NCBI RefSeq assembly: GCF_007990545.2
Contig: NZ_AP019829.2
Location: forward strand, 744,001-808,000
Source: Leptotrichia wadei
GTDB taxonomy: Bacteria; Fusobacteriota; Fusobacteriia; Fusobacteriales; Leptotrichiaceae
Reading direction: 5' to 3'
DNA length: 64,000 bases
Position 1 is the stretch's first letter; every line of letters starts with the position of its first letter. Positions 46,981-49,771 of the stretch are shown piece after piece. The position numbers were made by a program, and so were the translations under genes. A model generated the notes under the pieces. That model saw only the letters and a program-made list of their open reading frames with translations, was not told where the DNA came from and searched no databases.

Positions 46981-48264
46981 ATGTTTATAGATGAAAGTGT
47001 AATTACAGTAATTTCTGGAAAAGGAGGGGATGGAGCTGCTACGTTTAGGCGTGAGAAATTTGTTCAGTTTGGAGGGCCTGATGGCGGAGATGGCGGAAAA
47101 GGTGGAGATATTGTGTTTATCGCCGATCCAAATATTAATACGCTTGTGGATTTTAAAAGCAGTAAAAAATTTAAGGCACAGGATGGGACAAAAGGTGCTG
47201 CGGCACGTTCTACTGGAAAATCTGGAGAAGATTTGATTATAAAGGTTCCAGTTGGAACAATGGTTAGGGATTTTGAAACGAATAAACTTTTGCTTGATTT
47301 GGATATTCCAAATGAAAAAGTTATATTTTTAAAGGGAGGAGATGGCGGACGTGGAAACATCCATTTTAAGTCATCTGTGAAAAAAGCTCCAAGAATAGCA
47401 GAAAGTGGACGTGAAGGTGCAGAATTAAAAATAAAATTAGAATTAAAGCTGCTTGCTGATGTGGCACTTGTTGGTTATCCAAGCGTTGGAAAATCCAGCT
47501 TTATTAACAAAGTGTCAGCCGCCAGATCAAAAGTTGCAAGTTACCATTTTACAACATTAAAGCCCAAATTGGGAGTTGTTAGAATGGGAGATGAGGAAAG
47601 TTTTGTGGTAGCTGATGTGCCTGGGCTTATTGAAGGGGCTCATGAGGGAGTGGGACTTGGAGATAGATTTTTAAAGCATATTGAAAGATGTAAACTTATC
47701 ATTCATATTGTGGATATTTCAGGACTTGATGGGCGTGATCCTAAGGAAGACTTTTTGAAAATAAATCACGAATTGAAGAATTATAGTGAAAAATTGTCTA
47801 AAAAGCGACAAATTGTAGTGGCAAATAAGATTGATATGCTTTATGAAGATGAAAAATATGATGAATTTGAAAAATTTGTGAAGGAAAATGGAGCAGAATT
47901 TGTCTATCCAGTTTCTGTAATTGCAAATGACGGATTAAAGCCAGTTTTATCAAAGGCTTGGGAATTGATTCAGGAAATACCTAGAGAAGAGCTGGAGGAA
48001 GTTTACTCGGTTGAGGAATTGATTTCTGAAAACAATAAAAAAGAAGACTGGATTATTAGAAAAATTTCAGATAATGCATTTGAAGTTGATGGAAGAATTG
48101 TGGATGATGTGTTAAGAAAATATGTATTTATTGGAGAAGAGGGAATCATAAATTTCCTTCAAAAGATGAGAAGTCTTGGAATGGAAACAGAGCTTGAAAA
48201 AGCTGGTGTTGAGCAAGGGGATATAATAATTATTGCAGGTTATGAATTTGAATATGTAATTTAG
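46981..48264 (+). CDS. obgE: GTPase Obg/CgtA
   Basis: Ribosome-assembly and stress GTPase. 427 residues: glycine-rich Obg fold (1-158, with GKGGDGAATFRREKF), G domain (P-loop GYPSVGKSSF, switch DVPGLIEGA, NKID), and the C-terminal OCT domain of the Gram-positive-type proteins. A short ribosome site AAAGGATGATGA precedes the ATG. Followed by miaA and an EIIA gene. Confidence 0.97.
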   Translation: MFIDESVITVISGKGGDGAATFRREKFVQFGGPDGGDGGKGGDIVFIADPNINTLVDFKSSKKFKAQDGTKGAAARSTGKSGEDLIIKVPVGTMVRDFETNKLLLDLDIPNEKVIFLKGGDGGRGNIHFKSSVKKAPRIAESGREGAELKIKLELKLLADVALVGYPSVGKSSFINKVSAARSKVASYHFTTLKPKLGVVRMGDEESFVVADVPGLIEGAHEGVGLGDRFLKHIERCKLIIHIVDISGLDGRDPKEDFLKINHELKNYSEKLSKKRQIVVANKIDMLYEDEKYDEFEKFVKENGAEFVYPVSVIANDGLKPVLSKAWELIQEIPREELEEVYSVEELISENNKKEDWIIRKISDNAFEVDGRIVDDVLRKYVFIGEEGIINFLQKMRSLGMETELEKAGVEQGDIIIIAGYEFEYVI

Positions 48265-48345
48265 TTTAAATTTTCATATAATTTATAAATTTGATATTGA
48301 AAAAATTTAAAAAATGTGGTCTACTTATAGCAGGAGGTAAATAAA

Positions 48346-49269
48346 ATAGCTAAAGGAATTGTAATTGCAGGTGCTACAGGAGTTGGGAAAACTGATTTGT
48401 CGATAAGGCTTGCGAAAAAGATTAATGCAGAAATTATATCAGCTGATGCATCTCAAATTTATAGAGAATTGAATATTGGAACTGCGAAAATAACTGATGA
48501 AGAAATGCAAGGTATAAAACATTATATGATTGATGTTGTAAATCCTTGCGAAGATTATTCTGTGGGAGATTTTGAAAGAGATGTAAATAATATTTTGAAT
48601 GAAAATTCTCAAAAAAACGGAAAAAGTATTATTATTACAGGTGGAACTGGTCTTTATATAAGGTCAATTACAGATGGATTTGCAAAATTGCCTTCAAAGG
48701 ATGAAAAAATTAGAAAAGAGCTGGAAAGTAAAAGTCTTGATGAATTACAAGAAACTTTGAAAAAATTAGATGAAAAATCCTATGAGGAAATTGACTTGTC
48801 TAATAAATTGCGACTGGTTCGTGCCATTGAAGTGTGCCTTTTAACTGGCGGGAAGTTTAGCGAGTTAAGAACTCAAAATATAAAAGATAATAATTATGAG
48901 TTTTTAAAAGTATTTTTGACACGGGATAGAGAGGAACTTTACGATCGAATTAATAGGCGAGTTGAGATTATGATTGCAAAGGGGCTTGTCGAAGAGGCAA
49001 AAAAAGTATATAATAGGCATACAGAAAAGCTTTATAAAATATCTTCGATTGGATATAAGGAATTGTTCATGTATTTTGATGGGAAAATTTCATTGGATGA
49101 GGCGGTTGCAGAGATAAAAAAAGAAAGTAGAAGATATGCCAAAAGACAAATGACATGGTTTAGAAGGGAAAAAGACTATATTATTTATAATTTGTCAAGA
49201 ATGTCTGAAAACGAAGTATTGGATATGATTTTAAAAAGATGGGAAAATTTTAGGAAAGAAATAAATTAA
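48346..49269 (+). CDS. miaA: tRNA dimethylallyltransferase, apparent ATA start codon
   Basis: Adds a dimethylallyl group to A37 of tRNAs reading UNN codons. 307 residues if started at ATA 48346. The P-loop GATGVGKT lies at residues 9-16, so the start must be upstream of it; between the in-frame TAG at 48328 and the P-loop there is no ATG, GTG or TTG. AGGAGG (48332-48337) sits 8 nt before ATA, exactly where the family begins (M-A-K-G-I-V-I-A-G). Other marks: SADASQIYRELNIGTAK and GGTGLYI. The first standard start (TTG 48397) would delete the P-loop. An AUG-to-AUA change or a sequence error are the two readings. Confidence 0.9.
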   Translation: MAKGIVIAGATGVGKTDLSIRLAKKINAEIISADASQIYRELNIGTAKITDEEMQGIKHYMIDVVNPCEDYSVGDFERDVNNILNENSQKNGKSIIITGGTGLYIRSITDGFAKLPSKDEKIRKELESKSLDELQETLKKLDEKSYEEIDLSNKLRLVRAIEVCLLTGGKFSELRTQNIKDNNYEFLKVFLTRDREELYDRINRRVEIMIAKGLVEEAKKVYNRHTEKLYKISSIGYKELFMYFDGKISLDEAVAEIKKESRRYAKRQMTWFRREKDYIIYNLSRMSENEVLDMILKRWENFRKEIN

Positions 49270-49315
49270 GAAAAAAATTTTGAAAGGAGATTGTGGGATT
49301 ATCCTGCATAAAAAT

Positions 49316-49771
49316 ATGAAAATATTAGAATATTTAGTACCTGAAAGAGTAAATTTAGATTTAAAGGGAACAACAAAAGCAGAAACTATTAAAGAAATGG
49401 CACAATTATTTGTAAAAAGCGGAATTATTGATTCAGAAGATTTTGAAGAATTTGTGAGTGAAATAAATGAAAGGGAAAAATTGACACCAACAGGAATGCA
49501 AGATGGGATCGCAATTCCACATGCAAGAACTCCGCTAGTAAAGTCTCTTTCGCTTGCAATGGGAATTTCTAGCAAAGGTGTTGATTTTGAAAGTATGGAT
49601 GGAGAACCTTCAAAACTAATTTTTATGATTGCCGCTCCAGAAGGAACTAAAAAGGAACATTTAGATTTATTAGCAGAAATTTCAAAATTGTCGTTTGAAG
49701 AAGAATTAGTGGAACAGCTTGAAGAAGTTAAAACAATCGAAGAAATTTTTGAAAAATTAAAAAATATTTAA
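49316..49771 (+). CDS. PTS EIIA domain protein (EIIA-Ntr type), copy 2
   Basis: 151 residues from ATG 49316. Phosphorylatable His in GIAIPHARTPLV, preceded by KLTPTGMQDG. Single domain without EIIB/EIIC, so a regulatory PtsN-like role is likely. The start is doubtful: AAGGAG at 49284-49289 is 26 nt from the ATG, and no ATG/GTG/TTG lies at proper spacing; an ATT at 49298 does. It follows miaA by 46 nt and is a distant paralogue of the EIIA at 28134. Confidence 0.85.
   Translation: MKILEYLVPERVNLDLKGTTKAETIKEMAQLFVKSGIIDSEDFEEFVSEINEREKLTPTGMQDGIAIPHARTPLVKSLSLAMGISSKGVDFESMDGEPSKLIFMIAAPEGTKKEHLDLLAEISKLSFEEELVEQLEEVKTIEEIFEKLKNI

Follow-up and report, generated by a model that had tools for sequence, protein, structure and literature searches.

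The window, by which we mean the whole stretch of 64,000 nucleotides analysed here (positions 744001–808000 of contig 1 of a 2.34 Mb genome), includes a miaA gene flanked by obgE and a gene for a PTS protein:

46981–48264, plus strand: obgE, encoding the GTPase ObgE (NF008955, 549 bits), the upstream neighbour of miaA.
48346–49269, plus strand: miaA, encoding tRNA (adenosine(37)-N6)-dimethylallyltransferase, 307 aa counted from an ATA codon.
49280–49771, plus strand: a PTS EIIA-type protein (TIGR00848, PF00359), the downstream neighbour of miaA.

The MiaA protein matches the curated family model TIGR00174 over its length with 279 bits (cut-off 148.65), and it also scores 279 bits against PF01715. 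This is the sole copy of miaA in the genome, which also carries miaB, and its product is predicted to isopentenylate A37 of the tRNAs that read UNN codons. The gap between the end of obgE and the AUA of miaA is 81 nt. Around the start of miaA we distinguish the following features:

48328–48330, plus strand: TAG, the last in-frame stop, which closes the miaA frame in the sequence.
48332–48337, plus strand: the Shine–Dalgarno (SD) sequence AGGAGG, 8 nt 5′ of the ATA, with a pairing energy of −11.7 kcal/mol.
48346–48348, plus strand: ATA, the very probable start codon of miaA, judged by the lack of a canonical start before Walker A, its conservation in six species and the pattern of indels around it.
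48370–48393, plus strand: the Walker A motif GATGVGKT, 8 codons 3′ of the ATA.
48397–48399, plus strand: TTG, the first canonical in-frame start of miaA in the ORF listing; its use would remove Walker A.

A preliminary description of this DNA had placed the start of miaA at the ATA on the grounds that Walker A precedes every ATG, GTG or TTG in the frame, and the sequence bears out every factual point made there about it. After the TAG, the miaA frame runs CAG GAG GTA AAT AAA ATA GCT AAA GGA ATT GTA ATT GCA and then enters Walker A. Neither the sequence nor the ORF listing has an ATG, GTG or TTG in this frame between the TAG at 48328 and Walker A, the first canonical codon being the TTG at 48397, 3′ of the motif, and GATGVGKT can be part of the product only if translation starts at or near the ATA at 48346. 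The ATA does lie 8 nt from a perfect AGGAGG in a frame closed by the TAG, and it stands where the Met of the family is expected: 8 codons before Walker A, versus 7–9 codons for the start in relatives from the order outside the genus. The AGGAGG is a true SD, because the 3′ end of the organism’s 16S rRNA is GGATCACCTCCTTTCT, and of 616 genes compared in this genome, just 7.6% equal or better its energy. Together with the comparisons given below, this arrangement makes it very probable that miaA of this genome starts at the AUA at 48346. A shorter MiaA, started at the ATT at 48358 or the TTG at 48397, has in its favour that AUU is a known weak start and that this TTG is the only nearby canonical codon, but 20 nt separate the ATT from the SD, the TTG would cost the protein the Walker A motif that the family needs, and nearly all relatives retain KG[IL]VI ahead of Walker A; we consider such a start very improbable.

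Non-AUG starts that appear in single genomes are frequently errors, and a mistake in sequencing or assembly, or decay to a pseudogene, would be one way to account for the ATA. The genus comparison covers 13 Leptotrichia-like genomes, one per species (L001 is this genome). ATA is found 7–8 nt from a strong SD in six of the 13 (L001–L006), the distance being 8 nt in L001–L005, while L006 has GGAGG, 7 nt and ATA. A base error is in practice excluded because the assemblies of five other species share the identical ATA, and the case that the preliminary description had named as refuting the AUA start, ATG in the relatives with this genome alone differing, is absent. The frame is intact over 307 codons, the MiaA score is far above the cut-off, and the gene is the only copy in a genome where miaB is present, all of which leaves error or decay of the gene with hardly any probability. 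(A scan of named genomes brought up Clostridia, Bacteroidales and others but no close relatives.)

In four of the six ATA species (L001, L002, L004 and L005), the stretch from the stop to Walker A is free of canonical start codons. The other two each offer one that is nearer to Walker A than the ATA, a GTG in L003 (SD energy −3.4 kcal/mol) and a TTG in L006 (−1.0 kcal/mol), compared with −10.7 to −11.7 kcal/mol at the ATA sites; 95% of the genes of the genome do as well as or better than the GTG of L003, and 99% do as well as or better than the TTG of L006. It had been proposed that conservation of the ATA in relatives would mark it as functional. The conservation is there, in 6 of 13 species, but retention of the codon alone is weak evidence, because among the 25 Ile columns that are invariant across these six miaA genes, 5 are likewise ATA in every species; our case does not depend on it.

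The lengths on either side of the ATA differ in kind. From the ATA to Walker A, the six species have 8, 8, 11, 11, 11 and 13 codons, with length differences in multiples of three only, whereas the distances from SD to ATA are 8, 8, 8, 8, 8 and 7 nt, with a one-base change in L006. A one-base change in length would break the frame if the part between SD and ATA were translated. The whole-codon changes 3′ of the ATA and the single-base change 5′ of it therefore place the boundary of the coding sequence at the ATA. In a tree of 30 MiaA proteins, the ATA species fall into three places (L001–L003, L004–L005, and L006 beside four ATG species), and ATA is found on both sides of the deepest split in a ten-species clade (support 91/91). 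Under parsimony, the ATA of miaA would predate this clade; in the simplest history it was gained once at the base and later gave way, again once, to the widely spaced ATG (79/72).

The remaining species of the genus begin miaA in other ways. In L007–L010 there is an ATG, but GGGAGG stands 15 nt away and no SD pairing is seen at the usual distance, which would make this ATG another weak-looking start as far as SD energies go. In L011, L013 and L014, GTG is apparently the start and its pairing is weak (−3.3 to −6.9). In these three, the GTG sits inside the sole SD-like sequence (GAGGTGG/GGGGTGA), and two of them have an ATC or ATT 8 nt further on. Elsewhere in the family, the other genera start miaA with ATG, and in the sampled genomes from elsewhere in the order, the codon nearest Walker A at the expected place is ATG in 16 of 20, TTG in 3 and GTG in 1. 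On these comparisons, the AUA of miaA is a lineage trait, neither universal nor required throughout the genus. What the genus seems to share is initiation that looks weak, reached in several ways (a strong SD before AUA, a distant SD before AUG, and a weak SD before GUG), where the readings for AUG and GUG are based on SD energies only.

This distribution bears on whether the AUA does anything beyond starting the protein. It is quite possible, if a little short of an even chance, that it has no regulatory role: the ATG would have been lost by drift as the gap between obgE and miaA grew, the strong SD would have sufficed, and IF3 would act on miaA only as on any weak start. The ATG of relatives outside the genus fits such drift, as do the several start solutions within the genus (ATA, ATG at long spacing, GTG) and the frequency with which Ile ATA codons are kept by chance in these genes. 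Drift does not readily explain, however, why none of the six species, which span the clade, has made the single ATA-to-ATG transition that would bring back a strong start, given that published reconstructions find selection toward AUG (PMC5622118), or why the remaining species also look weak, with their ATG 15 nt from the SD or their poorly paired GTG. We hold the opposite reading, a selected regulatory role of the miaA AUA through weak initiation, to be evenly poised between true and false.

The region just upstream of the SD is also conserved, and it can be read in two ways:

48297–48302, plus strand: a candidate −35 box, TTGAAA, 17 nt before TCTACT, a conserved block in the alignment.
48314–48329, plus strand: the conserved block ATGTGGTCTACTTATA, recognised in the alignment and present as a single copy in the genome.
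48314–48340, plus strand: a short ORF, MWSTYSRR-stop (ATG TGG TCT ACT TAT AGC AGG AGG TAA), 9 codons including the stop.

Most of the ten-species clade has kept the block at 48314–48329, ATGTGGTYTACTTATA. We infer that it belongs to a miaA promoter made of TTGAAA, a 17-nt spacer and TCTACT preceded by TGTGG (an extended −10), in which case the RNA would begin at about the SD. A strict consensus scan just upstream of miaA gave no promoter; that scan requires an A as the second base of the −10. Matches resembling TGTGGTATAAT are few within the window, and we rejected the block as a repeated element, there being one exact copy and near matches no commoner than those of a reversed-pattern control. 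A structured leader or riboswitch is unsupported, because an Rfam search of the miaA 5′ region gave no match and its folding is no stronger than that of shuffles (z 0.26 and 0.78).

The stop of the short ORF follows the SD directly, and three of its codons are UNN. If the ORF were translated, miaA could be reached by reinitiation at the AUA or by −1 frameshifting, and the UNN codons (UGG, UCU, UAU) could sense MiaA-dependent tRNA modification. The conservation of the single-copy block and the UAA directly after AGGAGG/GGGAGG in L001–L005 are compatible with this, but the frame and the end of the ORF differ in L007 and L009, L006 is without its ATG, and the distance between SD and ATA shifts by one base in L006, so a frame through the SD is not kept. 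Furthermore, the block resembles an extended −10 with a −35 at 17 nt upstream, and the ORF would then not be transcribed from there. We regard a translated short ORF as improbable, and frameshifting from it was rejected for the lack of conservation of its frame and end. Direct initiation at the AUA behind the strong SD is the reading that we carry forward.

How unusual is such a start in this genome? We screened 864 kb (the window plus 40 stretches), holding 748 coding-like ORFs, for SD-supported ATA, ATT, ATC or CTG codons that are followed by coding content ahead of the next canonical start. Just two ORFs came out, miaA and a cysE-like one that is ambiguous between GTG and AUU. The screen is not exhaustive: it misses infC, whose next in-frame ATG comes 11 codons later. 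The cysE-like ORF, which resembles serine acetyltransferase genes (contig 1:119485–120042, minus strand), begins AAGGAG T GTG ATT ATT ATT TTT AAA TGG. Only about 1 nt separates its GTG from the SD, one of the ATTs may be the real start, and the pattern is kept in at least 9 species of the genus (L202; relatives L203–L211).

The gene for IF3 itself provides the closest parallel. In all 13 species of the genus, infC has AGGAGGTG, then TTTTTT or TTCTTT, then ATA AGA GG, which puts its AUA at 8 nt from the SD in 13/13 species, the codon and the spacing of miaA. (In this genome the sequence of the infC start region lies outside the window, at about 838200 of contig 1, L130.) A motif search of infC across the family found ATA or ATT in 28 of 32 genomes (21 ATA, 7 ATT), and the remaining four have ATA at that place, judged by eye; the AUU starts belong to some of the other genera, and across the family the start codon, AUA or AUU, stands 8 nt behind AGGAGGTG. 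An in-frame GTG of infC, which automatic annotation may choose, overlaps the SD and is unusable together with it. The downstream in-frame ATG is not a conserved start, because it is ATA in L126 and L131. The codon, SD and 8-nt spacing shared with infC make IF3 control of miaA plausible and are the best argument for it, one drawn from resemblance.

In the mechanism that we propose, initiator tRNA (fMet) would begin miaA at the AUA at 48346, recruited by the strong SD 8 nt upstream. The weak pairing of AUA with CAU would lower initiation while the strong SD would keep it workable, and MiaA would be held at a low level. IF3 would discriminate against such a codon, and MiaA output would move inversely with IF3, as with infC. 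The individual steps have precedents. IF3 destabilises 30S complexes on codons other than ATG, GTG and TTG and autoregulates infC (PMC5472188). The AUA starts of S. aureus citZ and ccpN give about 10% of the AUG output in poor medium, and that of ccpN up to 30% in rich medium (PMC13009471); in Listeria rsbW reporters, the order is ATG > ATA > ATT (PMC13068326). By analogy with these cases, MiaA output would be low through weak initiation at its AUA. A physiologically used link between IF3 and miaA is more doubtful.

Non-canonical starts are well known for infC, being AUU in E. coli, AUC in Streptomyces and AUA in S. aureus (PMC5472188, PMC13009471), and miaA resembles them in having an AT-A/T/C start behind a strong SD, with the same AUA and 8-nt spacing as the infC of its own genus. 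Unlike miaA, however, infC encodes the discriminating factor and its loop is autoregulatory, whereas miaA would merely follow; IF3 control has been demonstrated for E. coli infC, and for miaA the case is one of likeness of sequence only. S. aureus has further AUA starts in ccpN and citZ besides infC, and an AUU start in cvfC1 (PMC13009471). The AUA starts of ccpN and citZ, with an extended SD and shown by Ribo-Ret and reporters (PMC13009471), resemble that of miaA in that, outside infC, a conserved AUA stands behind such an SD, but they belong to other genes in another phylum and have experimental proof, while that of miaA is known from its sequence. E. coli pcnB, as PMC13009471 cites it from Binns and Masters 2002, has an AUU start; on that citation it is similar to miaA in that a non-AUG start limits a low-abundance RNA-modifying enzyme, and differs in codon and activity (AUU and polyadenylation, versus AUA and tRNA isopentenylation). 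In Streptomyces, sigR has a GTC start repressed by IF3, the dependence being shown with IF3 mutants (PMC5472188); it shares with the proposed scheme a non-canonical start that keeps the output of a regulatory-level protein low through IF3, although its codon is GTC rather than AUA. Control of MiaA levels is itself a known theme, exerted by other means in E. coli, where promoters, CsrA and RNA decay act on miaA (PMC12249760).

In the literature that we searched, we found no non-canonical start for miaA, and no paper on start codons in Leptotrichia stood out. AUA starts are already known, and as far as that literature goes, miaA is a new gene among them. A tRNA-modification enzyme thereby joins the few bacterial genes with a conserved AUA start. 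There is a practical consequence as well: automatic annotation limited to ATG, GTG and TTG would place the start of miaA after the nucleotide-binding loop or call the gene broken, and the AUA start corrects the annotation of miaA in at least 4 species. A broader and tentative idea, which we think rather unlikely as it stands, is that AUA starts mark a small IF3-sensitive set in these bacteria (infC, miaA and perhaps the cysE-like gene), in which the level of IF3 sets MiaA output, A37 modification and the decoding of UNN codons. If IF3 control of miaA is real, it would link how much of an initiation factor is present to a tRNA modification with effects on decoding and on keeping the reading frame, and such an IF3-sensitive AUA set would couple the fidelity of initiation to the accuracy of elongation.
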